Made by a program: the position numbers and the translations under genes. Shown piece by piece: positions 11,204 through 64,000 of a DNA stretch of 64,000 nt. The DNA lies in assembly GCA_964036295.1 (NCBI GenBank), contig OZ038466.1:24569997-24633996 (forward strand), given 5' to 3'. Each line of letters begins with the position of its first letter. The stretch's first letter is position 1. The notes under the pieces are model-generated. The model had not been told where the DNA came from and ran no database searches. It saw nothing but the letters and a program-made list of their open reading frames with translations. This stretch comes from Plumapathes pennacea. Lineage: Eukaryota > Cnidaria > Anthozoa > Antipatharia > Myriopathidae.

Positions 11204-11385
11204 CTTTGTTGTGTCTCACGGTGGAGACCGCTGTGCAAGTGGTTGGAGGACAAGTAGGGATGAAAAAATAAAATAAAATAAAATCTGTCGAATAGTAATC
11301 TGCCTCAGTACCTTAAGTGTGCTACAAGCTGATCACAGTTTAGGAACACCACTCTATACATTTTAAAAAGAAAAATTGAATCTAG

Positions 11386-12363
11386 CCCAAGGAGCCTGGG
11401 TCAGTACCTAACGAAGTCCGACTTTGCGGCGTTTTATCCAAGATTAAAATATTTTTTTCAAATTCTAAGGCCAGATTCGTATTATTTACTACCTCGAGTG
11501 TCTATTTTCTGCGTTCTAGTTGGACTCAGAGACCAAACATTTTTGGTTTAATGGACCCTAGGAGCCTGGGTCTAACCCTAATGGACTCCGACTTTGACCG
11601 CCGTTTTCTCCAAGATTAAAATATATTTTTGAATTCTAAAGCCAGATTTGTATTATTTACTACCTCAAGTGTCTATTTTCTACGTTCTAGTTGGACTCAG
11701 CGACCAAAAATGTTTTGGTTAAGTCAAACCCTAGGAGCCTGGGTCTAACCCTAATGGACTCCGACTTTGACCGCCATTTCTCCAAGATAAAATATAGTTT
11801 TCAAATTCTAAAGCCAGATTTGTATTATTTACTACCTCAAGTGTCTATTTTCTGCGTTCTAGTTGGACTCAGCGACCAAAAATTTTTGGTTAAATCAAAC
11901 CCTAGGAGCCTGGGTCTAACCCTAATGGACTCCGACTTTGACCGCCATTTCTCCAAGATAAAATATAGTTTTCAAATTCTAAAGCCAGATTTGTATTATT
12001 TACTACCTCAAGTGTCTATTTTCTGCGTTCTAGTTGGACTCAGCGACCAAAAATTTTTGGTTAAATCAAACCCTAAGAGCCTGGGTCTAACCCTAATGGA
12101 CTCCGACTTTGACCGCCGTTTTCTCCAAGATTAAAATATATTCTTAAATTCTAAAGCCAGATTTGTATTATTTACTACCTCAAGTGCCTATTTTCTGCGT
12201 TCTAGTTGGACTCAGCGACCAAAAGTGTTTGGTTAAATCAAACCCTAGGAGCCTGGGTCTAACCCTAATGGACTCCGACTTTGACCGCCGTTTTCTCCAA
12301 GATTAAAATATATTTTTCAAATTCTAAAGCCAGATTTGTATTATTTACTACCTAAAGTGCCTA
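11386..12363 (+). repeat. Satellite array 1 (about 171-173 bp monomers)
   Basis: About 5.7 head-to-tail monomers. The landmark CCCTA(G/A)GAGCCTGGGTCTAA starts at 11556, 11729, 11900, 12071 and 12243, so the spacing is 173, 171, 171 and 172 bp. Each monomer shares the order GAGCCTGGGTC - GACTTTGACC - TTTTCTCCAAGA - TTTACTACCTCAA - GACCAAAAA with the large array at 55.3-64.0 kb, but forms its own subfamily. Because 171 is a multiple of three, a reading frame stays open across several monomers (11691-12134). I do not regard that as coding. Confidence 0.9.
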
Positions 12364-12775
12364 CCGTGTAGCATGAAATTTTTGCGGGAGTTTATTTTCT
12401 AGAATTATGCGGATTTTCCGAGGATTTGCAAAAATTAAATCCCGAGAAAATAAACTCCCGCGAAAAAATAATCCGCGAAAATTTACTCCATTATACACTT
12501 AGATTACTGAATTTCAATTAACTTGACTGCAAACGAAATCACAGCCTTTGCAACTGAAACAAAACGAACATTACCTGCATAACTGCTGTAATAGTTTTGC
12601 TATGTACCAGTGCCGAACCTGAAATACCGAACAGAAGCTTGCCTGAAATCCGCGAAAATTTCTTCCTAACAGTAAAATCTGAAATCTAAATTCGCGAAAA
12701 TTTCTTCCCGCGAAACGCAAAAAGAAAACAGCAATCCGCGAAATTAAACTCCCGCGAAAATTTCCTGCCGCATGG
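12364..12775. mobile_element. 412-bp MITE inserted into a satellite monomer
   Basis: The ends are 36-bp terminal inverted repeats with about 30/36 matches, containing the shared core GCGGGAGTTTA. TA lies on both sides (12362-12363 and 12776-12777). Removing the element restores the satellite phrase GTGCCTATTTTC, so the insertion boundary is defined by the host repeat itself. The interior repeats CCGCGAAAATTT-like words in both orientations and has no ORF. It is a non-autonomous, TA-targeting DNA transposon. Confidence 0.88.
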
Positions 12776-12862
12776 TATTTTCTCCGTTCTTGTTGGACTC
12801 AGGGTTAGATTCAACCAAAATTTTTTGGTCTCTAGGAGACCTAGAAGCCTGAGTCTAACGAA
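12776..12862 (+). repeat. Remnant of the satellite monomer interrupted by the MITE
   Basis: The sequence continues the interrupted monomer (TATTTTCTCCGTTCT, GTTGGACTCAG, CCAAAATTTTTTGG, AGCCTGAGTCTAACG) and then decays. It marks the right edge of satellite array 1. Confidence 0.75.
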
Positions 12863-34300: not shown

Positions 34301-36423
34301 GGACGGGATGTTGGTCAATGTGAGTTTTCTTCTGCAGCAAAGAACTCCGGAAGGAATCCAACAAGCTGAAACGGGAGATGTTAGAATCCAAACGCAAAAA
34401 CGAAGATCAAGAAGACCAGGAGCAACGCAAACGAACGAAAAGTGAGCGCGTTAATTTAGTGTTCTTTTCAATATTAAGTACCCTGGTCCCGGGATCCTGG
34501 ATTTCCGAGTTCAAATTTATTTTACACAGTCAACAGTCTGGACACTATACAGACGAACAAGGTTTATTGGCCCCGGCCGGTCGAATTTCACTTACCTGTC
34601 TGTATATAAACTACGAAATGTAAAATCGAATATTGCGTGCTTCTCTTTTTTGGTAATACAATATTCAGTCCACTTTGGTCGGAAATCCCCAAACGCGAAT
34701 TTTACAAGTACTGTTGATCAAATGCGTAAAACATTTCCTCTACCATGAAACTGTTGGCTTTACAGCGCTCTTATTTACAGGTAAATCATGCATAAGTCGA
34801 TGTTGCGTGCAATATTTCATTTTTGAAAGTTTCTTACAAACACGACTGCTTGTCACCAAACGAGACAAGGCCCTTGCCACGGGTGAACAATACTCCAGTG
34901 TGTTGTCAAAAATCCTTCCAACATCTTTGTTGTCTTTTACGGCTTTATCATAGCCGCACTGGTGGTTCAGTGGTAGAATTCTCGCCTGCCACGCGGGAGG
35001 CCCGGGTTCGATTCCCGGCCAGTGCAATTCATTTTTTTCCGAAACTGGTTTTGTCACTCTTTTGGGAAAATTCAAACATTTTTACAAAAGAGGCTATCGT
35101 TTTGCTGGACGTTATACATATTTTAGTGTTTGCCTTCCCAAAGAAATGCAGCTGCGGTACAAAGTTCTCACAAAGTTGCTTGTTTGTCTCGTTTCTTCAG
35201 AGGAAGCAGGTCATTCTTCGGATGTTCTTACGGATTTCCACGCCGAACAGAAACTCTACCTGGCGAAGAAGAAGAAAGAACAACGACGTAAAGGCGACGG
35301 ACGAGACGCGCAGGTGCAGATTCATGCAGTAGCATTCTTATTTGTGAAAACCAAAACAGGACGAGTGCATACATTTATCGACGTAACTCCCAGGGCCCGG
35401 TTGTTTAAAGCTCGATCAGGCTGATCCTGCGTGGTTAGGTCCAAAGGTTTTGCTCAAGATACCTCTTTCTCGATATTATTTTGGTTAGAACAAGATTTTA
35501 GCATGGCTCGTCTTTGATCAAAAGCTCACAGTTTGTTGGCCAAGAAATCAAGAAAAAGAGTTTGGTTAATCCTGGAGTACACGAGACTCGTTAAAACGAG
35601 CACGTGCCAGCGATTCTTGAATTTTAGAATTTTGTTTTTTCTATTTGCAGGGCCTTACTCATTTTGCAAGTTCTAAATAATCGCAGCAAATACATTTCCT
35701 CTGGGTGTTCTTTATTCCTTTACAGTTTGCTTCTGTACTTATTTGTTTCTTTTCTCCCTGTTTTGTTCTATTTTCGCCTTCTTTCTGTCGACGTCTTGTG
35801 TAGACTATCTCGCTGCTGGCTGACTTCCAATCTAAACTAGAACAGTCTGAACCAGAGCCAGAGATCAAACAAGCCGAGGACGAGGATCTCGACGAAGAGG
35901 ATGACACTGGATGGTAAGGGATATTTCCGGCATGCATTGGTGAATTGGTGTACAGTCAACTCACTCTAAGCTGGACACCCTCGGGACTAGCTCCAACTGT
36001 CCGTCTTAAATAGAGTTCAGTTAGAGTAAACGACCGAAGAAACGGGCAGGGATCGCTCCTACCAGGTGTCCGTCTTAGAGGGGTGTCCGTTGAGAAGAGG
36101 GAGTTGACTGCACAGTCCGCCAAGTTCAATACCGCCTTACAAAGAGAGATGGTATTTGCTACCTACAATAAAGCTATAACAGTAAACTGCACGAGTTCTT
36201 TGGGGTCACTGAGCTCTTCTCGCTTGTTTCGTGACACCATTCCCTATCGTTCTTCTTTCATAGGATGTCACACATTCTGTCGTGCGAAGAGGCACGTGCC
36301 AGACAAGCGAAAGACGCGAACATACAAGACGCGGACACGTACGAAATATTCGACCCCAGAAATCCGATCAACAAAAGACGACGAGAAGCGAGCAAACAGA
36401 ACATGAAAAACAAGCGACGATGA
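31343..36423 (+). CDS. CWC27: Spliceosome-associated cyclophilin CWC27
   Basis: CWC27 is a cyclophilin-type protein of the activated spliceosome. Fourteen exons join in frame: 31343-31384, 31494-31629, 31854-31895, 32080-32111, 32270-32413, 32691-32789, 32922-33025, 33295-33364, 33473-33559, 33831-33958, 34338-34441, 35201-35313, 35804-35913 and 36264-36423, giving 456 residues (human 472). The cyclophilin domain starts MSNIYIQEPPTSGKVLL, with FHRIVKGFCIQGGDPTGTG and SQFFFTLDRADELNKKHTIFG. In that last block Glu replaces the Trp of active cyclophilins, as in human CWC27, so it is probably not an efficient isomerase. A charged linker (FKLLSFGDEAED, MKSSHDLLDD) leads to Lys/Glu coiled-coil-rich exons and the conserved tail DDTGWMSHIL, DTYEIFDPRNPINKRRRE. 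The first donor (AAG/GTTGCA) is weak. An intact tRNA-Gly gene lies in the intron before exon 12. Confidence 0.95.
34956..35026 (+). tRNA. tRNA-Gly (anticodon GCC), nested in a CWC27 intron
   Basis: A 71-nt cloverleaf-capable gene. The acceptor stem GCACTGG pairs with CCAGTGC. The A-box is TGGTTCAGTGG and the anticodon GCC is at 34988-34990 in the loop CTGCCAC. The T-arm/B-box is GGTTCGATTCC, with discriminator A at 35026. A T run just downstream (from about 35032) is a Pol III terminator. It matches the metazoan tRNA-Gly-GCC almost base for base, so it should be functional. It is on the same strand as CWC27. Confidence 0.97.
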
Positions 36424-38891: not shown

Positions 38892-39305
38892 CTAGTTCGT
38901 TCCGTTTCCCTCAGAAGCATTCGTGACGACATCCCGCGCAGAGTTCTCGCTTGGGACGTTGCCTCCTTGGTCCATGTCTTTCACTAAATTATCAAGAAAC
39001 CGAATGTACTTCATGGCTAGCCTCAAAATCTCGTTCTTGGAGAGCTTTCTCTCCGGCGGGTAGGTCGGCAGCAGTTTTCGCAGCTCTGCAAACGCCAGAT
39101 TTACATGCTGTTGTCGCCATCTTTCTCGGCTGTTTGTGTAGAGGCGTTTCATAAAAGTGCGCGTTTGTTTGCCTCTCCCGGGGAAATGCAGCGCGGCGTG
39201 TGGGGATCCTCGCGGACTGACACTATTTTCTGATCCACTAGAACTGCAACCACTCACGGGCGATAAAACAAACGTGTTTGTCACTGCGACGTTGTCGTAA
39301 GCCAT
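38892..39305 (-). CDS. TAL/SCL/LYL-type bHLH transcription factor, gene 1
   Basis: A single exon from ATG (39305) to TAG, 137 residues. The bHLH domain is at about residues 57-110: [19 protein letters not shown], then [19 protein letters not shown], then [18 protein letters not shown]. The RERWRQQ-VN basic/helix-1 signature and [15 protein letters not shown] helix 2 define the TAL1/LYL1/TAL2 group, whose members bind E-boxes as heterodimers with E-proteins and specify blood/endothelial and neural fates in vertebrates. The E-box-contacting Glu is present. The N-terminus is Ser/Gly-rich. It is the most TAL-like of the three bHLH genes here. A one-to-one orthology call would need a tree, so no symbol is given. 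Confidence 0.9.
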
Positions 39306-40829
39306 GCGTATTTCCTGATCGGATCTGCGTCTCTCGGTTTGAGAAATATCTTCACGCTATATGTGTCCCGATGCCCAATTTTTTCGCGTCCAGTACGAAC
39401 GTCTGAGAACTTCGGTAGTGTCTGCGTTTATCCAGAGCTCTGCAGATGCTGGTCGTGTTTGCGCTTTACTCACGGCACAATGTTGGACTGCTTTCTAGCA
39501 GGCGTTTAGCGCTTTCATTTACTGCCAGGAAATTGCCGTTCATTTACTGCTTCATTGGGGTCACGTTCTGCCCTCGTCTCGCCCAATCAGCTTCACGCAA
39601 CCTCTTTTCGCTTTACGTTTTTAATTGCCCATCATTGTAAATGTTGTGTGGTCTTGATGACAATAGCCATCATTTAAACCACATAATGTCGCCATTGTGT
39701 GGTCGTGATTTCGAAATCACCTGAATGCAACGCAGCCACCTCTTTCATGGCCTACTGGTGCCAGTCGCGACCTTCGGAAACAACAAATAAAAGCCTTCCG
39801 AAAAATAATAACAAAATATAATAACAACGTCTGAGCTTGCTGTTGTTTCGAGTTTGCGAAATTTGAGTTGATGACAGGGAGTTTAATGAAAACCATACAA
39901 TGATCGAATGACCTTCAAGGATGTGCCCCTGGAGTGCCTTTTCATAACTTCAGTAATACTCTGTTTATGCGCAAACACTGGGCGTGTGTCCGGAAGAAAC
40001 GCCCGTGAAACAAAGGGTCAAAGAAAAGGACGTGCTTATTCCCTTTCTTCGTTGTCACAAACTCATTAATCCTGACAAGATAGATTTTTGCGGCGAGTCC
40101 AAATGTGTCGAAAACTTGGAATTCAAGAAACGCCATTTCCTTGAAGCTTTCAAGACATGTCTCGCATTTTAGAAATAGGTGACAAAGTAAACACTGTGGT
40201 ATCCGTCCATGTCGCGCGACCACCACGGACGTTCAATCCTCAATTTTCAGTACACTTTTTGGACAGCAAGAATTTCACTTTCAGTGCTCCAAGTGCCAGA
40301 TTTTCCATGAGGGGTGTTTACGATAGAAAGCCGGAAATGAGCAAAATACTATTGCTAAGCTAAAATTGACGGCGATTATAAAACATGAAACATTATACTT
40401 TGGATTAAACGCTGTTTTACACCTACCACTGAAATGATAGACGGTAAAGCCTGAAGGAGAAGAGCTTGTCTGAGAGGCTCAAGAGCTTTAAGCCTCTGGG
40501 ACGGGCTCTGGGTTGGCAATGTTTCAAGTTCTCAGTGTAATTATCGACGTAAATCTTTAAGTCACGCGTTCGGCTCAAGCTCGTGTTTTAGCTGAAACTC
40601 CCTTTCAAACGGCCGAAATGCACGTGGCCAGTGAAGCAATGGAGCACCCTCCGTCCCAGGCTATTCTCGGTCCGAATTTCACTGTGCTATCTTCGGCGTA
40701 TTTAGCCTCAACTGGGTGACCACTCAAATGAAAGCCAACAATGAGTACATAGTCTAATATCAGTGTCAGTTCAAAGTTGTTGAACAGTTTGAAAAATTAA
40801 GAAGAAATACAGTAGTTGTTACGCTACAG

Positions 40830-44777: not shown

Positions 44778-45143
44778 TCATTTTCTTCTGACACTTCTGC
44801 CACCCGTTTTCTTATCAGTGTCTCTATCTTCCGAATAAATCAAATTTCCTGAAGAGCAAGTCTCCGAGCCGCAAACGTTGCTTTGTGATTGCGTGCCATG
44901 AATTTTGCGGAACTCGTGCCGCGCACTACTGGAGGGTGTTTCTCGTCCGCAACCGTCCAAATCCTGTTCATCCATCACCGTCAGGAGACTCTCTAAAAAC
45001 CGGATGTACTTGATGGCACCCCTGAGAATCTCCGCTTTTGAGAGTTTCTTATCCGAGGGATAAGTTGGCAGAAGTCTGCGTAGATCCGCAAAAGCAATGT
45101 TGACATTTTGTTGTCTCCAGCGCTCACGTTTACTGCCGAACAT
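44778..45143 (-). CDS. TAL/SCL/LYL-type bHLH transcription factor, gene 2
   Basis: The ATG at 45143 gives 121 residues, with the bHLH starting only four residues in: [54 protein letters not shown]. The open frame runs 20 codons further upstream without an ATG and is closed by TAG at 45207-45209. So either the protein begins almost at the basic region, or an upstream exon is spliced in. The basic region has GSKRERW where gene 1 has TNSRERW. The C-terminal tail is Ser/Thr-rich and ends GGRSVRRK. Same orientation as gene 1 and divergent from gene 3. Family assignment is confident; the start is uncertain. Confidence 0.8.
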
Positions 45144-48100
45144 GCCGTGACTGGACTTGTGATCGCGTTTCGTATAAGCCAGAGTTGCAGTTTCGACTCC
45201 CACCCGCTAGGCTTTGTCTCTTTTTGCACGGAGTCTGGTCAGAAAATTCGGATTCAATGACTTCAAGCTGACGGAGGTAGTTTAGCTTAGAATGCTAAAG
45301 CGCTTTGACTCTCTCGCGCACACCAGGACCGTATTTAGATTACTACTATTATCACGGAAACGATCAAGCGCCTTAATCCAATTAGATTGCCCGCTCATCT
45401 TAATGAACCCAATTAACACTGTGTCGTTAACATGTGCCACCGGGGTTTTTTCGTCACAGCAACAAGAGCGTAGCACGTTGCTGAACTCCTCTATTCTAGT
45501 AAGGTGTACACTACCTCAACTACTTCAAGAACTCAAACAAGGTGACTCAGAACTTCCTCCCATCCATATGCTTCTTAAATTTGGTTCTCTGGACTCTTAC
45601 AGGATTCTTTGTTTCGATAAAGATCTCCGCAAATTCGTTTACACTGCGTTCATGTTTCTTTAAGAATTTTTATGCCTAAAAGCTAAATAAACCATATGAA
45701 TTCTCTCAGTTATTGGGTTAGCAGTGGTGGAAGGCTTTTAGAGCAATAACTTTGGAGCTGCGCAAAAACCAGTTTCGTGTTTCCTGTGGCAATTTTCAGG
45801 CGCAAACGCAGTAATGGATCTCAGCTCTAGAAGCAGACAGACAGACATACAGAAGAGGTTTATCTTTTCCCATTCATTTCATGCGTCCGCCTGAGTGGCG
45901 TCGCGTCGCTCATTCCACTGAGCGAGTCAGCAGGTTTGTCGAATGCATGATATTTCCCAAAGAGAACGAAATGAACTGTTATTTCGTCTGTAAGTTTTTT
46001 CACTCTTCTTTTCCTGCTTGCGATGGTTGAGAACTTTCCGACCTTACACGCCTAGAGTTTGTTGCGGATACTAGCCCTAAGGATCAGGTTGCGAGAGAAA
46101 TTGCAGAGGATGTTTTTCTCATCTTCCATCTCAAGTTGTCAGATTTCCACTACCTCTTCACACACGATTTTTATTAGCGATTAAATAAAAAGAATAATAA
46201 TTTTATAAATATATAGTGACTCAGTCAGCAGTTCATTGGAACATGATGAGAAAATGGAACATACGCAAACTGCAAATACAGCGCTAATGTTAACCTATAT
46301 AGTATTAATTCCCGATTAATTTGTTCTGCGCTTTTACTGGCTGCGCAAAGAATGTTCTCCACATGTGATTATGTCATCCACCTTCTCTCTCTTTTCCCGT
46401 TCAAGCTACTATCTAAGACAAAATTGTGTGGGAAACAGTAACTTGAGCAGTTTACAGATTCGATGCTGGAGACTTTTCTTGATAAAGTGCTCAGGAAAAC
46501 CACTTTTCAGATTAGAAAATTTCCAAGGCTGCAAACTAATCTTTCAAAAGAAGTATGACCATTCAAAGGAGAGCTCTCGTGTCAAGTAGGTCACGTCCTT
46601 GTGCTAACTGTGCGCAAGCGCGTATTAACTTGGCTTGGCCGTCTGGTTTCATACGCAAGACTTTAGCATTTTAACGCTACCAGAACCCTTTCAAACGTCC
46701 AACTAATAAACTGTCAAATGAAACCTAAAGTGTGACCACTCAATAGCATTAATCTTTTAAGTCCGTCAATTCTAGCTTAAAATCAAATCATTTTCCAAGG
46801 AAGAGAGCTGCCTGAACAAGATTTTTTATAGTTACTAACCCCGACTCTACTAAAGGTGAAAATATGATTTAATGTATAGCATATGAGCAATGGAACCCAG
46901 AATACTTTTCGATTTGCACCCTCACAGGGCGCGTCAGTTCTTGAAATAGACTAAAAGGCTAAGTAAATTAAGTTTAATTGGCTATGTAACTAAGCTTATT
47001 CTGGGCTAAAAACAGATTTTGAACCCTAAAAATAGTTTGCCACAACAGAGGATAGCAAAGTACTGCCAAACTTCGCCTTGCAATATTTATAGTTAGCTAT
47101 ATGGAGTTCAAATGGCTGTCAGACTACAAATTCTCCTAATACTATTCATGAATTTTGTTTGGGGTACGTAGGAGAATTACGACTCAGATCATGGGGCTGG
47201 TTAAGGGATCAGCCGATACGCATTTGAACCACGTACTTTTGGTAATGCAAATGTAACCAGGTCAACAAAGCCTCTGCTTTGTTTAATTTTAGAATTGATT
47301 TATGTTACTCTGTTAGGCGTGTTAGTAAGTTTGGTGTTATTGATTAATCATGAAATGACCTCATATGAGTTCATGCCCCATGTTATTAGGTTTCTGCCCA
47401 ACCTTTGCTTAGTCATGTCCTGATGTGTGGGTTTATGACTCGACTATTAGTTTTTAGAGCCTTATTTGGTCTTTTTCTGTTTACTTATTTCCTGTTTTTA
47501 GCATATAAATTTAGACTCTTTTCGTTCTACACTTTGAGTTTCGAGTTAGTTTGAACTCCCCAGAGGATTACTGTCATCTCCTTTGGTATATCCAGCTGTT
47601 CGTGTGAGAGATATCGTTTCTCATTCTTGTAGTACTGTTTTGGCTTTGTTTTGTTTTGTTTAAAACCTTTTTTTCCTTTTTTTTTGTATCGAGCGTTTTA
47701 TTAAATTCCTATTTTGGACTGGATTTATATTTTGCCGTTGTTTCCATAACAACACGAACCTCGACCCGGTCACACAAAGAAAAAAATGTAACTTATCAAA
47801 TTATGTACTTTGACAGTTTGACAGATCTCGGCTAAATTTAGCACATGTTTCGCAAAGTTTCAACATGGTCAGGATATCCCGAATAAAGAACAGAACTAGA
47901 ATGCTGTAATTAGAACACAGCTATTTTTGAAAAGCTAAACTGGAAAACGTTTGGAGGCCTGCTGCTTTGGCAGGAGAAAGTCCTCGATGCAAAAGTGAAA
48001 AGGATCAAATAAAGGTCGTGCATGACCCGCAGGGCATATTTAATAATATAAAGTATTGAAAAAAGCGGACCAACGGCGGTCGAGGTAATTAACTACCATT

Positions 48101-48165
48101 TAAGCGAAACGAAACCTAACGCAACTAAATTGTTAATTGTGCTTATGATAGCTCTTTATATCACA
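45144..48165. other. Divergent intergenic region between bHLH genes 2 and 3
   Basis: About 3.0 kb between divergently transcribed bHLH genes, and therefore likely to contain both promoters. T-rich stretches occur near 47640-47700. No coding exon or RNA gene was recognised. Confidence 0.4.
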
Positions 48166-48759
48166 ATGTCAGAACACGCACATGGAAACAATATGGCAGC
48201 AGAATTCGGTGCTGTTGTGTGCCACCAAGCGAAGCTGCTCAACGGATCTCCTGATTTTGCGGTCTATGCCACTCCAACCGCATCGAATTCAGGCCGCGGA
48301 GGCCGTGCGTTTTGCCAAGAACATCTGACACACAGCAGCAGAACCTTCACGAACAGTCGCGAGCGCTGGAGACAACACAACGTCAACGCTGCGTTTGACG
48401 AGCTCCGCAAACACTTGCCAACTCACCCGCTCGACAAGAAACTCTCCAAACACGAGATTTTACGGCTCGCTACGAGGTACATAGCCTTCTTGGGCAGGCT
48501 CGTAAACCGCATGGATTTGGAGCGAAATGGAGGAGTCAACACGGAGGTAAAGTCCCGGAGGGGAAGGCGGTGCAAATCTTGTTGTACGAGTCGAGGAAAC
48601 TCATCTTCCGGGATAAATTTTGATGAAATTACTGTGGACGCACTGACGCCAAGGATCAACCTGGACAGGAAAAAAGAGCAGCTTGGAGATTACGAGGATT
48701 TTGCGCCAACTTCTCTGGGTACCGCGGCATGGTCTCGGTTGCGCCATATTGATGATTGA
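48166..48759 (+). CDS. TAL/SCL/LYL-type bHLH transcription factor, gene 3
   Basis: A single open frame. I choose the ATG at 48166 (ACAATGTCAGAACAC, A at -3), giving 197 residues. In-frame ATGs at 48145 and inside the N-terminus (MAAEFG) are alternatives. The bHLH reads [57 protein letters not shown]. The RERWRQ-NVN signature and KLSK-EILRLA helix place it in the TAL/SCL/LYL group. His replaces Gln in WRQH, and loop/helix-2 changes make it the most diverged of the trio. The C-terminal region has a basic-Cys patch ([10 protein letters not shown]) and an acidic tail. It is on the opposite strand from the other two. Confidence 0.87.
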
Positions 48760-50414: not shown

Positions 50415-53400
50415 TCAAGACGGAGATCCATCAAAGAATTCGATATCCTGGAACTTCAATACCTGGCAAAAGAAAATGCAAAGCAAATCAAGTTAGTACG
50501 CAAATCTGTATCGAAGTCGATCACCCACCATCAACATACCACCTTCCCTCCCCTCCCCTCCCCTCAGAGAGGAACAGTCAAGTGGGCTATTCTCTACTAA
50601 TTCTCTGTCGGTTAATGAAGTCTTACCTCGTTTCCCCAGCTGGTCCAGTGCGGAGTCAAACTTCTCGCAAACATTTCCAGACACACGGGGTGCGGTTTGA
50701 GAAATTCTGACAAAACCTCTGCAGAGAATAATCAACAGCTATAACCGGAGACAGAGAGCCCGATTAATAATAAGAGAGCTGAGAGCACGCGTAACTCTGT
50801 GTGTGTGTGTCGTTGTGTGAGAGAGACACACACAGACAAAGGCACAGAATAGAGACAGAGAAAGACCAAGAGAACAGGCTACAATTAATCACAAGAAAAA
50901 ACGAAAAAGGGCCTGAAAAGCACAGTTGTTAACAAACACGAGAATGAAAAAGGAAGATGGCAGAAGAAACATGAAGGAGCTGGAGGAGCTGACATACCAT
51001 CTAGCGGTGGTTTTCTTGAATGCATTTTGCACGGGACGCTGCAAATGACTTTATGACCAAGAATAACCTGGCGTTTCTTTTCAGATTCTTCAACACGTGG
51101 CGTGTGACATTGTGTCTCGTTCTCAGTTTTTTCAGTGTTGTCGCAGGGTAGACTGCGTGAGCATGTTGTTGTCTGGAGGCCACGTTCTCCAACCCAACGG
51201 GCGCTGCGAACTTTCTCGTCACAAATGCCACCTCTAACACAGAAGTAGCTTTCGTCTACGATGCTGGCACATAATGTTGTCAACTGCGAGGCCGTATCCT
51301 GAAGAAAGTAATACGTGATGTGCAAAGCTTGTTGTATGCTTGATTATATCATGAACACAAGCATAGAGAAGACAGTGCACACATTTCAGTTTTTATCGCA
51401 ATTTATATATTGGGCCACTCAAAAGCTCTTACCAGTTATATAAGCATAGAGTTTTAAATATTAATAAAAGTGCATGCTACTTCACATAAAGCTACTTACA
51501 GTCAATCTAAAGCATTCGTTTCTACATGTTGAGTTTAAAAAGTCAATAAAAGCTTCGTACATCAACGGCTTCCTCCTTTTCTCCGTCAATCTTTGCTCTC
51601 TTCACAGATAGGTAATCGGCTTCTGTTTCATCCTCCTTTTCCCGGTGTTCATCTAAAGTTTCCGACCGTCTGACATCTCTTGACCGTCTGTGTTGTGGCC
51701 CGCGGTCGTCTAATACCGTGTTGGAGTTTCTAGAAGGGTATCTGCCGATTAGAAGAGTTTCATACGGCTTCTTGTGAGGCGAGTTCAGGTCTACTACCAG
51801 CTCCCCCGTGTTTGTCACCTGTGGAAAAATAAAACAACAACAAAAACAAAACAAAAAATAACTCAGAGAAAACGTCATAAAATCAGTGATGAGAATCCTT
51901 TGACTATAGTTTTGAATTTGACAGTTTCTATTTTCTGAGGAAATTTTCAAAAAAGTTTCTACGAAGCCTAAATCAAGAAAATTACCTTGACCCAGTGCCA
52001 CTCGGCTATCAGTTCAACGGACCAATAGGGAAAGAGCTCACTCTTGGCGAATCTGATGTATTTTGACTTGTTGGTTACCCACAAGGCAACGAGAGCGTTG
52101 GGAGCTAAAAGCTGCGGGACTGGAAGGGCCTTGATCTCCCACAACGACATAAAAGAATACCTGGGGACAAATTAAGAGACAGACATGAGATTTTTTTCTA
52201 TTTTGGTACAAGTTACGTTACATGAAACTGCCATGATTTCACCCTTATCAACCACTTGATTGAACACTTTCACTCCCAAGCTCAAAGCAGATTCTCCTAA
52301 CTTTATAGAAGAAAATGAATGAATGATGTAGTGAGAGTTGATAGTTTACTCAGTTTCATCTAAGGAAGCTATCAAGAACCAAGTTCTCCATACCATATGA
52401 TATATCTGTGGTGAGAAACTGAAGGAGAAAACTAAACTTGATCACTCCTGGAGTGAAAGGGTCAAGTTAATGCGTGACTCACTTTGATGCACGCCTGGCA
52501 GACTTGTTGTACCAGGGTGGATCCACCACAACAAGATCGAACAGCTCATGCTGTTGAACTGGGAAGAAATTTAGACCATGAGAAAGGAAATTAAAGAGAT
52601 ACAAGAAGTTTAGTTTGGCCCTAAACTCATTTCAAAATACACTCAATTCCTTCCTCATTTCCTTATATTATGTTTATTATGTTTGTGTTGTAGATGAGAG
52701 CCAATAAAATATTTACATCCACATCTTTATCTATGCCTGTCTTTCCTAACATTTAAAGATGACCCAGAGAAAAAGAAGGACCAAGTGGCTATAGAAGCAG
52801 GGGGAAAAAATACCTAGAAAATTAAGGCCTTTACTAACAATACCATATTCTAGAAGAGGTTCCAAGTGAGATGCATCAGACATCAAGAAGGAGCTGTGCG
52901 CAGGCAATAAGTAGTGTCCACCTGAGACATTAATTATTGATGGAACGTCCACACTGTGGTGCACCATGCGGTTAAAGATGTCCTGAGTATCAACCGTGTC
53001 ACCTAAGGGTATGCACAGACTACATCAGTCACTAACTTCTCTCAATGCATGAAGGCAAAAAAAACTGAAAGTTGATCAATCTCAGTAGTGAAAAGGCGAG
53101 TAAAATAAAAGTAGGAAAATAAACAGTGCATGGACAATAAAATAATGGAGAAAGAGAAGCCATACCAGAGGTGATGACAAGAGGTGGCATCAAAGCTGGC
53201 GTATTCTTGATGGCCAAGTTTGACAACTCCTGCACAAAGTCAATGTGCTGTACATCTGCAAAGACAAAATCATGCAGCATAAACTCTAGTGTATTTATTA
53301 ATTTTTTAACAAAACACTGGCAGACTAAGACTCACAGATACAATATAGAAAACCAGTACTAAAGGGAACTAGATTTTGACTGCATCAGCTTGCAGAAAGA

Positions 53401-54822
53401 CATATATAATAAATTACAAAGGGTCTTGATGTGTGACACCCAGACACCCTAAAGAATACTGGAAGCTGACGCTTCGAGTGCCAGCCCTTCAAGTAAGATT
53501 TATAGAAACAGGATAAACAGGTTGCTTCTACAGTGTTTGAAATTAACTTTTGTGCTCTGCTGTTCCAGGGACAACCACAAGTCATGTGTTGCACGTTTTC
53601 AATTTTCCAGGACAACTCAGTGAGTCATTTACTGGACTTTGTACTCAAATTCACATCACAGTTTTAATGCCAAGATGAATACCTTTCAAAGATTCAACGT
53701 ATTCGTCTCCTTCATGGTCCTGTCCTTCAAAAAGAAACATCCCTCTCTCTTGACCAAGTCTGAGAAGCCCATTTAATGCTGTCAAAATGGCTTCCCTCAC
53801 CTGTAAAATTAAATAGGATTACTATTAATAATTGAAGGAATGAGTGCAAAAGGGCTGTCATGTGTGACTTTGATCTCCATAAAATTGACTTCTTTCAGAT
53901 TTTTCCTGGCTAATATTTCTGGTATTTTTGACTTTCATATCTTTATCATGTCAAAGAACGAAGTAAAAAGTAATATTACACTTCATTGAAAAGAATCACA
54001 TAATAAAATATTATTATATTAAAATTTTATATTAAATAATAATTACGTTTTTTGGTAATTGGGTTCTGCAGCATTATGTATCACACTTCACAATTAATCA
54101 TACTGATTGTGTTACCTTACTTTGACAAATATATTAAAAATGAAGTGAACAGTATCAGCTATAAACCATATCATATCATACCTGTTGTTGATACAGTGCA
54201 TCTATATCAGTCTCACTTTGAGTTGAGCTCAGCTCAGACTTTCGTTTCTGTCAAGCGGAAAAGAAAATCAGTTTATAAATACCCAGCTGCAGATCCATTG
54301 ATTGTCTGAAGTCTGAATATCTTTCATGTTGAGTATAAACACTTAAAATATAACATTCTATTTCATTCTAGATGGAACACAAAAGATTATCCTACAAAAT
54401 CTTCTTAAATAGTATTTGAGAGTAGGTACAACCTGAAGGAATCACGCACTGTTATAGTAAGTTATTAGTATTTTTATAATTAACTTGTGTAAAATATTTT
54501 AAAACAGCTGATATTATATATATATATATATATATTAAGTTAAATAAAACCAAAGACAAAACCACATGACATGACATGTATAATAAATATAGGAATTGGC
54601 ATAGGAATAGGAAGGAACTATTAATGTACTTACCTTCTTTTTCCGGCGATCGAGTGTAAGAGATTTCGACGATCTGAAATAAGGTTCATACACCGCAAAC
54701 ATACTTTTGTTGCACACAAAACCTACGGCAGAAACAGCATCTGTAATAGCTCTTGCATGATCCACGAGAAAGCCATCACTACTACAAGCAATGACAGCCA
54801 CCTTGACAAAATTCCTTCGCAA
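50415..54822 (-). CDS. METTL4: Adenine N6-methyltransferase METTL4 (first codon not located)
   Basis: METTL4 belongs to the MT-A70 family and installs m6Am in U2 snRNA; DNA 6mA activity is also reported. Eleven exons join in frame: 54822-54634, 54247-54182, 53800-53683, 53255-53166, 53002-52844, 52558-52483, 52160-51986, 51818-51561, 51298-50998, 50718-50627 and 50462-50415, giving about 523 residues (human 472). The first exon (FVKVAVIACSSDGFLVDHA) matches the vertebrate N-terminus but has no ATG and opens after a good acceptor (CTTTTTCAG), so the start is in an upstream exon. The SAM/catalytic block is LVVVDPPWYNKSARRASKYS (DPPW), followed by ALWVTNKSKYIRFAKSELF, LIAEWHWVKV and SPHKKPYETLLIGR. 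The C-terminus has VICSVPCKMHSRKPPL, MFARSLTPHWTSWGNEVLKF and a TGA stop. Between LLIGR and VICSVPC it has about 140 residues more than human. Confidence 0.93.
50540..50570. repeat. Pyrimidine tract, (CCCCT)n-like
   Basis: CTTCCCTCCCCTCCCCTCCCCTC in the last METTL4 intron. It is purine-rich (GAGGGG) in the sense of the transcript. Confidence 0.6.
54516..54536. repeat. (TA)n microsatellite
   Basis: About ten TA dinucleotides in an intron of METTL4. Confidence 0.8.
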
Positions 54823-55330
54823 CTGAAAAAGCAGATCAGAATTTCTATTTCCAATACTCTTGATGACAAAAACTACCAGTTAGTTATTAAGACAGAGCTG
54901 ACAAACGCATTGCGCATGTTGGTGACGTCATCAGTCCGTACGCTTGTTTATCTTGTTCAGAGTCACTGAGGTCAATACTTTAATTTAAAATAACCTTAGA
55001 GCTTTCCTTTTCATTGGAATGCTTGACCGGTTCTTTCACCTTGAGTATAGTGTCCTTTTATACTACCTACGACTTTCACAGCTGGTACGATCCAAAGACA
55101 GCGTACCAGCGGAAAGGACAGCACACTTTACTATAGTCTGCTTCACTCTGAGGCTCATTTTGTGTCAAATATAATTCAGTCAAGCAATTCTACTTGAGTT
55201 TCCGATGGTACATTTTACTCTGTATATCCTCGACCGAAGATACGGTTAAAGATAGTCTGGTTATTTCCCGCTGATACGATCGAACTCCATCGTACCAGCG
55301 GGAAGGACACATCACATTTTCCACAGCTGT
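54823..55330. other. METTL4 5' flank up to the satellite
   Basis: Probably holds the METTL4 first exon and promoter, but I could not place an ATG-bearing exon with matching phase. Two related words around GTACGATC...GTACCAGCGG (about 55085-55110 and 55275-55303) form a diverged repeat next to the satellite edge. Confidence 0.35.
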
Positions 55331-55780
55331 AAATGCAGAAAGTAGGATCTTGAGGAAGTAACTGATAGTAATCTGCCCTTTGAATTTGAAAATAAGTTTT
55401 AATCTTGGAGAAATTAACGGTCAAAGTTGGAGTTAGTTAACGTTAGTCCCAGGCTCCTAGGGTTTTAAACCACAAATTTTTTGGTCTGTGAATCTAACTT
55501 AAATGCAGAAAGTAGGATCTTGAGGTAGTAAATGTTAGTAATCTGCCCTTTGAATTTGAAAATAAGTTTTATTCTTGGAGAAATTAACGGTCAAAGTTGG
55601 AGTTTGTTAAGGTTAGTCCCAGTCTCCTAGGGTTTTGAACCAAAAAATCTTTTGGACTCTGAATCCAACCTAAACGCAGAAAGTAGGATCTTGAGGTAGT
55701 AACTGATAGTAATCTGCCCTTTGAATTTGAAAATAAGTTTCAATCTTAGAGAAATTGACGGTCAAAGTTGGAGTTAGTTG
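55331..55780 (-). repeat. Satellite monomers in inverted orientation
   Basis: About 2.6 monomers of the same family in reverse-complement orientation. Landmarks are GACGGTCAAAGTTGGAGTTAG, CTCCTAGGGTTTT and TCTTGAGGTAGTAA. They are more diverged than the forward array and abut it across a unique junction of roughly 90 bp (55781-55870). Confidence 0.85.
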
Positions 55781-55870
55781 CAGAGGCGGCCCAGACACCA
55801 GGGATCTGTCTGTCTGTCACAAAGTGATGTTGCGTAACAGAAAATTATAAGGAAATAAAAAAACTTTGAA

Positions 55871-58800
55871 CTCAAGGACCAAAAAACTTTCGTTTATAAA
55901 CCCTACGAGCCTGGGTCAAACCCTAACTAAGTCTGACTTTGACCAGTGTTTTCTCCAAGAATAAAACATATTTTCAAAATCAAAAGACTGATTCCTATCA
56001 TGTACCATCTCAACTGCCTATTTCAAGTGTTTGAGTTGAACAGAAGCACCAAAAAAATTTTGGTTTATAAACCCTAGGAGCCTAGGTCAAACCCTAACTA
56101 AGTCTGACTTTGACCACTGTTTTCTCCAAGAATAAAACATATTTTCAAAATCAAAGGGCTGATTCCTATCATTTACAATTTGAAGTGCCTATTTCCAGTA
56201 TTTGAGTTCAACTAAAGCACCAAAAACTTTTTGGTTTATAAACCCTAGGAGCCTGGGTCAAACCCTAACTAAGTCTGACTTTGACCACTGTTTTCTCCAA
56301 GAATAAAACATATTTTCAAAATCAAAAGGCTGATTCCTATCTTTCACCATCTCGACTGCTTATTTCCAGTGTTTGAGTTGAACTCAAAGACCAAAAAATT
56401 TTGGTTTGTAAACCCTAGGAGGCTGGGTCAAACCCTTAAAGAAGGTCTAACTTTGACCAGCGTTTTCTCCAAGATTAAGATATGTTTTCAAAAACAAAAC
56501 GCAGATTCCTATTATTTACCACCTCAAGTTCCTATTTACAGTGTTTGAGTTGAACTCAAGGACCAAAAAATTTTCGTTTATAAACCCTAAGAGCCTGGGT
56601 CAAACCCTAACTAAGTCTGACTTTGACCAGTGTTTTCTCCAAGAATAAAACATATTTTCAAAATCAAAAGGCCGATTCCTATCATTTACCATCTCAACTG
56701 CCTATTTACAGTGTTTGAGTTGAACTAAAGCACAAAAAAATTTTTGGTTTATGAACCCTAGGAGCCTGGGTCAAACCCTAACTAAGTCTGACTTTGACCA
56801 GTGTTTTCTCCAAGAATAAAACATATTTTCAAAATCAAAAGGCTGATTCCTATCATTTACCATCTCAACTGCCTATTTTCAGTCTTTGAGTTGAACTGAA
56901 GCACCAAAAAATTTTCATTTATAAACCCTAGGAGCCTGGGTCAAACCCTAACTAAGTCTGACTTTGACCAGTGTTTTCTCCAAGAATAAAACATATTTTC
57001 AAAATCAAAAGGCTGATTCCTATCTTTCACCATCTCGACTGCTTATTTTCAGTGTTTGAGTTGAACTCAAAGACCAAAAAATTTTGGTTTGTAAACCCTA
57101 GGAGGCTGCGTCAAACCCCTAAAGAAGGTCTAACTTTGACCAGCGTTTTCTCCAAGATTAAGATATGTTTTTAAAATCAAAACGCATATTCCTATTATTT
57201 ACCACCTCAAGTTCCTATTTCAAGTGTTTTAGTTGAACTAAAGCACCAAAAAATTTTTGGTTTATAAACCCTAGGAGCCTGGGTCAAACCCTAACTAAGT
57301 CTGACTTTGACCAGTGTTTTCTCCAAGAATAAAACATATTTTCAAAATCATAAAGCTGATTCCTATCATTTACCATCTCAACTGCCTATTTCCAGTGTTT
57401 GAGTTGAACTAAAACACAAAAAAATTTTGGTTTATAAACCCTAAGAGCCTGGGTCAAACCCTAACTAAGTCTGACTTTGACCACTGTTTTCTCCAAGAAT
57501 AAAACATATTTTCAAAATCAAAAGGCTGATTCCTATCATTTACCATCTCAACTGCCTATTTACAGTGTTTGAGTTGAACTAAAGCACAAAAAATTTTTCG
57601 TTTATAAACCCTAGGAGCCTGGGTCAAACCCTAAACTAAATCTGACTTTCACCAATGTTTTCTCCAAGAATAAAACATATTTTCAAAATCAAAAGGCTGA
57701 TTCCTATCATGTACCATCTCAACTGCCTATTTCCAGTGTTAGAGTTGAACTAAAGCACCAAAAAATTTTTGGTTTATAAACCCTAAGAGCCTGGGTCAAA
57801 CCCTAACTAAGTCTGACTTTGACCAGTGTTTTCTCCAAGAATAAAACATATTTTCAAAATCAAAAGGCTGATTCTTATCATTTACCATCTCGACTGCCTA
57901 TTTCCAGTGTTTGAGTTGAACTCAAGGACCAAAACAATTTTTGTTTATAACCCTAGGAGCCTGGGTCAAACCCTAACTAAGTCTGACTTTGACCAGTGTT
58001 TTCTCCAAGAATAAAACATATTTTCAAAATCAAAAGGCTGATTCCTATCATTTACCATCTCAACTGCCTATTTTCAGTCTTTGAGTTGAACTGAAGCACC
58101 AAAAAATTTTCATTTATAAACCCTAGGAGCCTGGGTCAAACCCTAACTAAGTCTGACTTTGACCAGTGTTTTCTCCAAGAATAAAACATATTTTCAAAAT
58201 CAAAAGGCTGATTCCTATCATTTACCATCTCAACTGCCTATTTTCAGTCTTTGAGTTGAACTGAAGCACCAAAAAATTTTCATTTATAAACCCTAGGAGC
58301 CTGGGTCAAACCCTAACTAAGTCTGACTTTGACCAGTGTTTTCTCCAAGAATAAAACATATTTTCAAAATCAAAAGGCTGATTCCTATCTTTCACCATCT
58401 CGACTGCTTATTTCCAGTGTTTGAGTTGAACTCAAACACCAAAAAATTTTGGTTTGTAAACCCTAGGAGGCTGGGTCAAACCCCTAAAGAAGGTCTAACT
58501 TTGACCAGCGTTTTCTCCAAGATTAAGATATGTTTTTAAAATCAAAACGCATATTCCTATTATTTACCACCTCAAGTTCCTATTTCAAGTGTTTTAGTTG
58601 AACTAAAGCACCAAAAAATTTTTGGTTTATAAACCCTAGGAGCCTGGGTCAAACCCTAACTAAGTCTGACTTTGACCAGTGTTTTCTCCAAGAATAAAAC
58701 ATATTTTCAAAATCATAAAGCTGATTCCTATCATTTACCATCTCAACTGCCTATTTCCAGTGTTTGAGTTGAACTAAAACACAAAAAAATTTTGGTTTAT

Positions 58801-61800
58801 AAACCCTAGGAGCCTGGGTCAAACCCTAACTAAGTCTGACTTTGACCACTGTTTTCTCCAAGAATAAAACATATTTTCAAAATCAAAAGGCTGATTCCTA
58901 TCATTTACCATCTCAACTGCCTATTTCCAGTGTTAGAGTTGAACTAAAGCACCAAAAAATTTTTGGTTTATAAACCCTAGGAGCCTGGGTTAAACCCTAA
59001 CTAAGTCTGACTTTGACCAGTGTTTTCTCCAAGAATAAAACATATTTTCAAAATCAAAAGGCTGATTCTTATCATTTACCATCTCGACTGCCTATTTCCA
59101 GTGTTTGAGTTGAACTCAAGGACCAAAACAATTTTTGTTTATAACCCTAGGAGCCTGGGTCAAACCCTAACTAAGTCTGACTTTGACCACTGTTTTCTCC
59201 AAGAATAAAACATATTTCCAAAATCAAAAGGCTGATTCCTATCATTTACCATCTCAACTGCCTATTTTCAGTCTTTGAGTTGAACTGAAGCACCAAAAAA
59301 TTTTCATTTATAAACCCTAGGAGCCTGGGTCAAACCCTAACTAAGTCTGACTTTGACCAGTGTTTTCTCCAAGAATAAAACATATTTTCAAAATCAAAAG
59401 GCTGATTCCTATCTTTCACCATCTCGACTGCTTATTTCCAGTGTTTGAGTTGAACTCAAACACCAAAAAATTTTGGTTTGTAAACCCTAGGAGGCTGGGT
59501 CCAACCCCTAAAGAAGATCTAACTTTGACCAGCGTTTTCTCCAAGATTAAGATATGTTTTTAAAATCAAAACGCATATTCCTATTATTTACCACCTCAAG
59601 TTCCTATTTCAAGTGTTTTAGTTGAACTAAAGCACCAAAAAATTTTTGGTTTATAAACCCTAGGAGCCTGGGTCAAACCCTAACTAAGTCTGACTTTGAC
59701 CAGTGTTTTCTCCAAGAATAAAACATATTTTCAAAATCATAAAGCTGATTCCTATCATTTACCATCTCAACTGCCTATTTCCAGTGTTTGAGTTGAACTA
59801 AAACACAAAAAAATTTTGGTTTATAAACCCTAAGAGCCTGGGTCAAACCCTAACTAAGTCTGACTTTGACCAGTGTTTTCTCCAAGAATAAAACATATTT
59901 TCAAAATCAAAAGGCTGATTCCTATCATTTACCATCTCAACTGCCTATTTCCAGTGTTTGAGTTGAACTAAAGCACAAAAAATTTTTCGTTTATAAACCC
60001 TAGGAGCCTGGGTCAAACCCTAAACTAAATCTGACTTTCACCAATGTTTTCTCCAAGAATAAAACATATTTTCAAAATCAAAAGGCTGATTCCTATCATG
60101 TACCATCTCAACTGCCTATTTCCAGTGTTAGAGTTGAACTAAAGCACCAAAAAATTTTTGGTTTATAAACCCTAGGAGCCTGGGTCAAACCCTAACTAAG
60201 TTTGACTTTGACCAGTGTTTTCTCCAAGAATAAAACATATTTTCAAAATCAAAAGGCTGATTCTGATCATTTACCATCTCGACTACCTATTTCCAGTGTT
60301 TGAGTTGAACTCAAGGACCAAAACAATTTTTGTTTATAACCCTAGGAGCCTGGGTCAAACCCTAACTAAGTCTGACTTTGACCAGTGTTTTCTCCAAGAA
60401 TAAAACATATTTTCAAAATCAAAAGGCCGATTCCTATCATTTACCATCTCAACTGCCTATTTACAGTGTTTGAGTTGAACTAAAGCACAAAAAATTTTTT
60501 GGTTTATGAACCCTAGGAGCCTGGGTCAAACCCTAACTAAGTCTGACTTTGACCACTGTTTTCTCCAAGAATAAAACATATTTTCAAAATCAAAAGGCTG
60601 ATTCCTATCATTTACCATCTCAACTGCCTATTTTCAGTCTTTGAGTTGAACTGAAGCACCAAAAAATTTTCATTTATAAACCCTAGGAGCCTGGGTCAAA
60701 CCCTAACTAAGTCTGACTTTGACCAGTGTTTTCTCCAAGAATAAAACATATTTTCAAAATCAAAAGGCTGATTCCTATCATTTACCATCTCAACTGCCTA
60801 TTTTCAGTCTTTGAGTTGAACTGAAGCACCAAAAAATTTTCATTTATAAACCCTAGGAGCCTGGGTCAAACCCTAACTAAGTCTGACTTTGACCAGTGTT
60901 TTCTCCAAGAATAAAACATTTTCAAAATCAAAAGGCTGATTCCTATCTTTCACCATCTCGACTGCTTATTTCCAGTGTTTTAGTTGAACTCAAAGACCAA
61001 AAAATTTTGGTTTGTAAACCCTAGGAGCCTGGGTCAAACCCTTAAAGAAGGTCTAACTTTGACCAGCGTTTTCTCCAAGATTAAGATATGTATTTAAATT
61101 CAAAACGCAGATTCCTATAATTTACCACCTGAAGTTCCTATTTCAAGTGTTTTAGTTGAACTAAAGGACCAAAAAATTTTTGGTTTATAAACCCTAGGAG
61201 CCTGGGTCAAACCCTAACTAAGTCTGACTTTGACCAGTGTTTTCTCCAAGAATAAAAGTAACATATTTTCAAAATCAAAAGGCTGATTCCTATCATGTAC
61301 CATCTCAACTGCCTATTTCCAATGTTTGAGTTGAACTAAAGCACCAAAAAATTTTTGGTTTATAAACCCTAGGAGCCTGGGTCAAACCCTAACTAAGTCT
61401 GACTTTGACCAGTGTTTCCTCCAAGAATAAAACATATTTTCAACATCAAAAGGCTGATTCTTATCATTTACCATCTCGACTGCCTATTTCCAGTGTTAGA
61501 GTTGAACTAAAGCACCAAAAAATTTTTGGTTTATAAACCCTAGGAGCCTGGGTCAAACCCTAACTAAATCTGACTTTGACCAATGTTTTCTCCAAGAATA
61601 AAACATATTTTCAAAATCAAAAGGCTGATTCTTATCATTTACCATCTCGACTGGCTATTTCCAGTGTTTGAGTTGAACTCAAGGACCAAAAAATTTTCGT
61701 TTATAAACCCTAGGAGCCTGGGTCAAACCCTAACTAAGTCTGACTTTGACCAGTGTTTTCTCCAAGAATAAAACATATTTTCAAAATCAAAAGGCCGATT

Positions 61801-64000
61801 CCTATCATATACCATCTCAACTGCCTATTTCCAGTGTTTGAGTTGAACTAAAGCACCAAAAAATTTTTGGTTTATAAACCCTAGGAGCCTGGGTCAAACC
61901 CTAAACTAAATCTGACTTTGATCAGTGTTTTCTCCAAGAATAAAACATATTTTCAAAATCAAAAGGCTGATTCCTATCATGTACCATCTCAACTGCCTAT
62001 TTCCAGTGTTAGAGTTGAACTAAAGCACAAAAAATTTTTTGGTTTATGAACCCTAGGAGCCTGGGTCAAACCCTACCTAAGTCTGACTTTGACCAGTGTT
62101 TCCTCCAAGAATAAAACATATTTTCAAAATCAAAAGGCTGATTCCTATCATTTACCATCTCAACTGCCTATTTTCAGAATTTGAGTTGAACTGAAGCACC
62201 AAAAAATTTTCATTTATAAACCCTAGAAGCCTGGGTCAAACCCTAAGTCTGACTTTGACCAGTGTTTTCTCCAAGAATAAAACATATTTTCAAAATCAAA
62301 AGGCTGATTCCTATCTTCCACCATCTCGACTGCTTATTTACAGTGTTTGAGTTGAACTCAAACACCAAAAAATTTTGGTTCGTAAACCCTAGGAGGCTGG
62401 GTCAAACCCTTAAAGAAGGTCTAACTTTGACCAGCGTTTTCTCCAAGATTAAGATAATTTATGTTCTTAAAATCAAAACGCAGATTCATATTATTTACCA
62501 CCTCAAGTTCCTATTTCAAGTGTTTTAGTTGAACTCAAGGACCAAAAATTCTTTGGTTTATAAACCCTAGGAGCCTGGGTCAAACCCTAACTAAGTCTGA
62601 CTTTGACCAGTGTTTTCTCCAAGAATAAAACATATTTTCAAAATCAAAAGGCTGATTCCTATCATTTACCATCTCAACTGCCTATTTCCAGTGTTTGAGT
62701 TGAACTAAAGCACCAAAAAATTTTGGTTTATAAACCCTACGAGCCTGGGTCAAACCCTAACTAAGTCTGACTTTGACCAGTGTTTTCTCCAAGAATAAAA
62801 CATATCTTCAAAATCGAAAGGCCAATTCCTATCATTTACCATCTCAACTGCCTATTTCCAGTGTTTTAGTTGAACTAAAGCACCAAAAAATTTTTTGGTT
62901 TATGAACCCTAGGAGCCTGGGTCAAACCCTACCTAAGTCTGACTTTGACCAGTGTTTTCTCCAAGGATAAAACATATTTTCAAAATCAAAAGGCTGATTC
63001 CTATCATTTACCATCTCGAGTGCCTATTTCAAGTGTTTGAGTTGAACTCAAGGACCAAAAAATTTTCGTTTATAAACCCTAGGAGCCTGGGTCAAACCCT
63101 AACTAAGTCTGACTTTGACCAGTGTTTTCTCCAAGAATAAAACATATTTTCAAAATCAAAAGGCCGATTCCTATCATTTACCATCTCAACTGCCTATTTC
63201 CAGTGTTTGAGTTGAACAAAAGCACCAAAAAATTTTTGGTTTATAAACCCTAGGAGCCTGGGTCAAACCCTAAACTAAATCTGACTTTGACCAGTGTTTT
63301 CTCCAAGAATAAAACATATTTTCAAAATCAAAAGGCTGATTCTTATCATTTACCATCTCGACTGCCTATTTCCAGTGTTTGAGTTGAACTCAAGGACCAA
63401 AAGAATTTTCGTTTATAAACCCTAGGGGCCTGGGTCAAACCCTAACTAAGTCTGACTTTGACCAGTGTTTTCTCCAAGAATAAAACATATTTTCAAAATC
63501 AAAAGGCTGATTCCTATCATTTACCATCTCAACTGCCTATTTACAGTGTTTGAGTTGAACTAAAGCACAAAAAATTTTTTGGTTTATGAACCCTAGGAGC
63601 CTGGGTCAAACCCTACCTAAGTCTGACTTTGACCAGTGTTTTCTCCAAGAATAAAACATATTTTCAAAATCAAAAGGCTGATTCCTATCATTTACCATCT
63701 CAACTGCCTATTTCAAGTGTTTGAGTTGAACTCAAGGACCAAAAAATTTTCGTTTATAAACCCTAAGAGCCTGGGTCAAACCCTAACTAAGTCTGACTTT
63801 GACCAGTGTTTTCTCCAAGAATAAAAAGTCCGATTCCTATTATTTACCATCTCAACTGCCTATTTCCAGTGTTAGAGTTGAACTAAAGCACCAAAAAATT
63901 TTTCGTTTATAAACCCTAGGAGCCTGGGTCAAACCATAAACTAAATCTGACTTTCACCAATGTTTTCTACAAGTCAGAATAAAACATATTTTCAAAATCA
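55871..64000 (+). repeat. Satellite array 2, about 170.7-bp monomers with higher-order periodicity
   Basis: About 48 head-to-tail monomers reach the window end, so the array continues beyond it. Monomer order: ACCCTAGGAGCCTGGGTCAA, CCTAACTAAGTCTGACTTTG, ACCAGTGTTTTCTCCAAGAA, TAAAACATATTTTC, ATTCCTATCATTTACCATC, AACTGCCTATTTCCAGTG, GAGTTGAACT, and an AAAAAATTTTTGG dyad. Adjacent monomers differ, but variant types recur at multiples of the monomer length. One type recurs at 56971, 58336 and 59360 (8 and 6 monomers apart). Another recurs at 57826, 59020, 60215 and 61583 (7, 7 and 8 apart). Short open frames of 62-67 codons are by-products of monomer sequence and are not genes. Confidence 0.95.

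Follow-up and report, generated by a model that had tools for sequence, protein, structure and literature searches.

The right-hand end of a 64,000-nucleotide stretch of the Plumapathes pennacea genome (contig OZ038466.1, forward-strand positions 24,569,997 to 24,633,996; hereafter, the window, with positions counted from its first letter) raises the question of whether a satellite that resembles primate alpha satellite in unit size and layout must also share its location at a centromere. An initial annotation of this locus described 55,331-64,000 as one array of a 170.7-bp unit with alpha-satellite-like, centromeric higher-order organization. From the analyses below we conclude that the array probably belongs to a dispersed family of nucleosome-sized satellites, which lies in gene-bearing sequence, was locally amplified by unequal exchange, and most likely has no centromere role.

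The tandem structure and the unit of about 170.7 bp were borne out: Tandem Repeats Finder (TRF) reported head-to-tail repetition of a nucleosome-scale unit, with a period of 170, 47.7 copies, and 90% matches. TRF also reported a period of 341 at a slightly higher score (13093 versus 13046), but identity between monomers two units apart was not raised (z = −1.87), so we see no dimer pattern despite that score. Monomers were cut by a semiglobal scan, which replaced a regular-expression search that had missed units (24 found, plus strand). The scan yielded 47 whole monomers of 153 to 178 bp, mostly 170 to 173 bp, plus an 87-bp partial unit (m48), and pairwise identity over all 47 whole units ranged from 73 to 100% with a mean of 90.5%. 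An AT-dinucleotide period of 10.6 in the consensus was marginal (P = 0.032 against 500 base shuffles) and was not used. The extent first given to the array did need revision, because it spans two arrays: 55,330-55,779 is a separate array on the opposite strand, about 75% similar to the main one. We found no second copy of the spacer between them in a self-comparison of the window.

Within the main array, neighboring monomers differ while whole blocks of variants repeat, as the initial annotation had proposed. Clustering and order shuffles covered 46 of the 48 monomers, leaving out m47 and partial m48. At the tightest level, the clusters read ..A.BCADEFGHCCADEIHCADEFGHBCCA, followed by 16 units (from m31, at ∼61.0 kb) of which 6 were clustered, so that variants recur in the order E-F-G-H-(B)-C-(C)-A-D, with blocks that are sharp only to ∼61.2 kb. 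Three units were named D-type from their 90 to 95% identity to clustered D units: m31, which clusters with D at the loosest level only, and m04 and m39, which are unclustered at all levels (m39 is 90 to 92% identical to other D-type units). Runs recurring at ≥97% identity comprised 20 adjacent-pair recurrences, the longest being 7 units. None of 5,000 order shuffles matched this recurrence (means, 3.9 pairs and a run of 2.2; maxima, 12 and 6). Units at equivalent block positions were 99.0% identical (18 pairs), compared to 90.7% for adjacent units (26 pairs, m05 to m31). Since the 18 pairs, one of them adjacent, were chosen from the clusters, the 99.0% is partly so by construction and is descriptive, the shuffles being the independent test.

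The size of the repeating block is not constant. Successive blocks hold 4, 8, 6, 9, and a decayed 8 units (lengths in Table 1), which agrees with the earlier suggestion that block size varies but not with its range of 6 to 8. Mean identity between monomers was raised at lags of 8 (z = 3.7), 14 (z = 2.5), and 23 (z = 4.3) units, with P = 0.0015 for the largest of the 23 lags, but over the whole array it was not raised at lags of 6 (z = 0.3) and 7 (z = −0.4), a profile that fits mixed block sizes. Of the stripes anticipated at 6 to 8 monomers, then, a matrix that is not flat and a raised lag of 8 were seen, but lags of 6 and 7 were not raised on average. All five distances originally listed between identical variants could be reproduced: 1,365 bp (m09 to m17), 1,024 bp (m17 to m23), 1,194 bp (m12 to m19), 1,195 bp (m19 to m26), and 1,368 bp (m31 to m39).

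Two features of the array point to unequal exchange as the likely cause of this pattern: the recurrence beyond shuffles and the makeup of monomer m18. Block 3 is two units shorter than block 2, lacking a C unit as well as one member of the F/G pair. At that spot m18 looks like an F/G chimera, with 9 of 10 diagnostic columns in line with a single switch from F to G (the exception is column 6), and the pattern, for which the evidence is modest, is one expected from an exchange between F and G out of register. In this account, sister or homologous chromatids would have exchanged misaligned copies, with whole units gained and lost; adjacent units would consequently come to differ while whole blocks recur. 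The other two arrays show no blocks, presumably owing to their small size. Unequal exchange, with or without gene conversion, is still the simplest explanation for the main array.

The window holds three diverged subfamilies of this satellite, one per array, with units closer within an array than between arrays. We compared units in an alignment that ignores gaps and omits partial m48, the partial sixth unit of the third array (A1, near 12 kb), and the incomplete third inverted unit, with m47 left out of the averages. Mean identity within arrays was 94.2% for main-array units other than the six D-type units, 95.0% among D-type units, 90.8% in A1 (5 units), and 94.7% in the inverted array (one pair, one unit being partial), compared to 72.9 to 76.0% between arrays. 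A derivation of the D-type units from the A1 subfamily was rejected, as they are 74.4% identical to A1 but 84.0% identical to other main-array units. A decayed monomer continues A1 beyond a 412-bp insert resembling a miniature inverted-repeat transposable element (MITE), and A1 therefore appears older than the insertion. A family model built from 15 of 54 aligned units, whose listed matches leave out most of those in the main array, matched this remnant at 12,761-12,829 (E = 0.0025) and elsewhere outside the arrays found nothing better than E = 0.1 (8,876-8,963; best reversed control, E = 2.3).

The surroundings of these arrays are gene-bearing sequence. The start of A1 lies 175 bp above the first ATG (11,203), probably the start codon, of a RING-matching exon on the minus strand, and the inverted and main arrays lie 2.7 and 3.2 kb, respectively, from the nearest recognized exon of a METTL4-like gene, distances that are upper limits, since the first exon of that gene may lie closer. 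This setting bears on the question of whether a higher-order satellite block of the centromere or pericentromere could begin at the main array, the genes on its left being the last before the block. Such an edge would be in keeping with a nucleosome-length unit in higher-order blocks, an array that is still tandem at the window end, and a strongly CpG-poor composition (observed/expected ratio, 0.18). However, short arrays of related units stand close to genes, several gene-bearing stretches of the window are comparably low in CpG (0.08 to 0.37), and the core of the CENP-B box was absent from the arrays, its one exact match in the window being on the minus strand at about plus-strand position 16,565. 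Many animals are not known to have a CENP-B box, which tempers that last point. According to Melters et al. (2013; PMC4053949), centromere repeat length is not conserved, and clear higher-order structure occurs in 76 of the 171 species that had Sanger data; a centromere cannot be diagnosed from either feature. Dispersed short arrays had been named beforehand as a sign that would speak against a centromere, and two further related arrays within 45 kb point that way, in a sample of one window. We consequently regard a centromeric edge as quite unlikely and the original centromere reading as unsupported.

In a bolder variant, which we consider very unlikely, a large domain of methylated higher-order satellite, either centromeric or pericentromeric, would have its left border at the array, ∼3 kb from a METTL4-type methyltransferase gene, and the related arrays close to gene starts would have escaped from it. 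If true, this border would show at sequence level where satellite chromatin meets genes, in an animal lineage with perhaps little-known centromeres.

The CpG landscape of the window raises a further possibility, namely that the array lies in an intron or is transcribed in some other way, its low CpG being that of a methylated gene body extending beyond the window. CpG observed/expected in the main array is 0.10 to 0.26 per kb (from 56,001), like that of the CpG-poor gene-bearing stretches at 20-23, 24-30, and 52-54 kb, and four of the five CpGs of the A1 consensus are TG or CA in the main array. The ratio is 0.39 in the inverted array, 0.78 in A1, and ∼1 over much of the window, including its helix-loop-helix genes and a long frame at 13 to 17 kb. 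Between the A1 and main-array consensuses, CpG bases differ by 4 transitions and 2 transversions in 10, and other bases by 11 and 22 in 160. These differences are at most suggestive of CpG loss by methylation, as consensus changes are shared by the units and so are not independent events. The array nevertheless departs from the CpG-poor gene-bearing stretches in that TpG is raised (1.17 to 1.27) and CpA is not (0.91 to 1.02), whereas both are raised in those stretches. Moreover, the window ends inside the array, so that no rightward exon is in view, and the founder monomer may itself have been CpG-poor. A methylated gene body, which would be compatible with a dispersed, locally amplified satellite, is on balance unlikely. 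Viewed per kb, the whole window (1-64,000) is a sharp mosaic of CpG-poor and CpG-normal sequence, with gene-bearing stretches of both kinds. The mosaic resembles the mosaic methylation of invertebrates.

Transposition offers another route to dispersal: the arrays could be internal tandem repeats of a transposable element, for example of the Helentron type, as in oysters. Just left of the inverted array lie two hairpin-forming copies with the common motif GTACCAGCGG(A/G)AAGGACA, which has 2 matches in the window at ≤3 mismatches compared to 0.06 expected, and Helitron/Helentron-borne arrays, likewise short and dispersed, are reported for Crassostrea gigas (PMC10048060). Those two matches are the only ones in the window, however, so that none lies beside A1. 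A self-comparison and a check of monomer phase found no common element ends or flanks around the arrays here (three arrays only), which start and stop at different monomer positions. We therefore think it unlikely that a transposon carried these arrays.

A satellite family dispersed among genes has precedents, which we compared by description. TCAST elements of Tribolium castaneum (PMC3411249) likewise form short satellite arrays dispersed in euchromatin, in introns or flanked by genes; the arrays here comprise 2.6, 5.7, and at least 47 units, closer within than between. Dispersed euchromatic arrays are also documented in Chrysolina (PMC11049206) and reviewed in PMC10048060. A 188-bp satellite of Porites corals (PMC10236652) is likewise tandem, intergenic, and of similar unit size in an invertebrate. 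That satellite carries a palindromic telomeric sequence, whereas the 170-bp family here has only one orientation of the telomeric word: on the plus strand, CCCTAA and TTAGGG occur 46 and 0 times in the main array, 6 and 0 times in A1, and 0 and 0 times in the inverted array. Coral cytogenetic studies describe markers that identify the centromere region on individual chromosomes. The resemblance to primate alpha satellite (171 bp; PMC4053949) is in size and layout; here, by contrast, block size varies, the arrays lack a CENP-B-box-like site, and genes and small related arrays lie alongside. Primate alpha satellite also has the higher-order organization seen in the layout of the main array.

We take the satellite to be a new family of a known kind, its relatives having been sought by sequence in viral and prokaryotic collections only. 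Monomer patterns had no matches in those contig collections, which says little about relatives, and a literature search for monomer words returned no satellite paper, only single-word matches in 3 papers unrelated by title. Its interest lies in the presence of three diverged arrays of one family within 64 kb, with both sharp and decayed portions of the higher-order pattern, which lets array-by-array homogenization be read directly from one stretch. It also serves as a caution that a 171-bp unit with higher-order structure is no ground for calling a centromere without mapping. If the arrays have any effect, it would act on the chromatin around them, next to the RNF170-like and METTL4-like genes.

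Several observations weigh against a dispersed family amplified by unequal exchange. A C/G join matches m18 with no mismatches, better than the F/G join, and in a free chimera search m27 and m28 also have zero-mismatch joins. Gene conversion could mimic the pattern left by crossing over. Homogenization of the main array is uneven, given the 84.0% identity of its D-type units to the rest. In addition, the array leaves the window, which does not cover its full size, and the picture would be different if it were the start of a megabase array. Finally, the window contains only two satellite sites, too few to judge any preference for gene starts.

Table 1. Coordinates of satellite arrays, blocks, associated repeats, and neighboring exons in the window.
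Feature	Position	Strand	Description
DUF1232 exon	8,482-8,850		Same gene as, and downstream of, the RING exon; E = 2.2e-10
Third array (A1)	11,379-12,363	+	171-bp relative, 5.7 copies (TRF), ∼74% similar to main array
MITE-like insert	12,364-12,775		Splits A1; 412 bp; 38-bp imperfect terminal inverted repeats (84%); TA on both sides
Decayed monomer remnant	12,776-12,859	+	73.8% match (self-comparison); continues A1 past the insert
MT-A70 exon	51,968-52,171	−	Pfam match, E = 6.4e-13
Next exon of MT-A70 gene	52,479-52,631	−	MT-A70 below Pfam cut-off (E = 0.026); matches 7cv6 (E = 9e-5)
Hairpin-forming copies	55,081-55,120 and 55,270-55,309		40 bp, 33/40 identical, 189 bp apart
Inverted short array	55,330-55,779	−	2.6 copies (TRF)
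Spacer, inverted/main array	55,780-55,865		86 bp, A-rich end; direct reading
Main satellite array	55,866-64,000	+	TRF and monomer cutting; 47 whole ∼170-bp monomers plus partial; continues past window end
Block 1	56,585-57,268	+	m05-m08 (B C A D), 684 bp; clustering
Block 2	57,269-58,633	+	m09-m16 (E F G H C C A D), 1,365 bp; clustering
Block 3	58,634-59,657	+	m17-m22 (E I H C A D), 1,024 bp; shortened, second unit apparently chimeric
Monomer m18	58,804-58,974	+	G-like at column 6, F-like at next 4 columns, G-like at next 5
Block 4	59,658-61,191	+	m23-m31 (E F G H B C C A D), 1,534 bp; clustering
Block 5, decayed	61,192-62,564	+	m32-m39, 1,373 bp; ends in C, A, and a D-like unit

The neighboring genes were named from domain and structure matches. 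Matches to RING in the exon beside A1 reached a best E value of 1.8e-4, with one of three at its Pfam cut-off, and we take the gene to be RNF170-like from the pairing of RING with DUF1232. The METTL4-like label partly rests on 7cv6, which is deposited as Methyltransferase-like protein 2 and which we presume to be of METTL4 type. Beyond these exons, 52,746-53,024 matched 7cv6 at E = 0.39 only, and a frame at 53,651-53,818, picked out by eye as an upstream METTL4 exon, was rejected since it gave no useful match. The frame at 54,535-54,879 had only a FIST match below cut-off (E = 0.02).

Elsewhere in the window, three helix-loop-helix genes lie within 10 kb in CpG-normal surroundings (38,892-39,356, 44,778-45,206, and 48,052-48,759), with DNA matches of 71 to 78% between two of the pairs. 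A 1,207-amino-acid open frame at 13,180-16,803 matches the Chlamydia-PMP repeat above the Pfam cut-off and a beta-helix domain below it, and hydrophobic segments can be seen by eye near its end. The window also holds an exon matching branched-chain acyltransferase and, at 34,956-35,026, a tRNA-Gly (GCC) gene.

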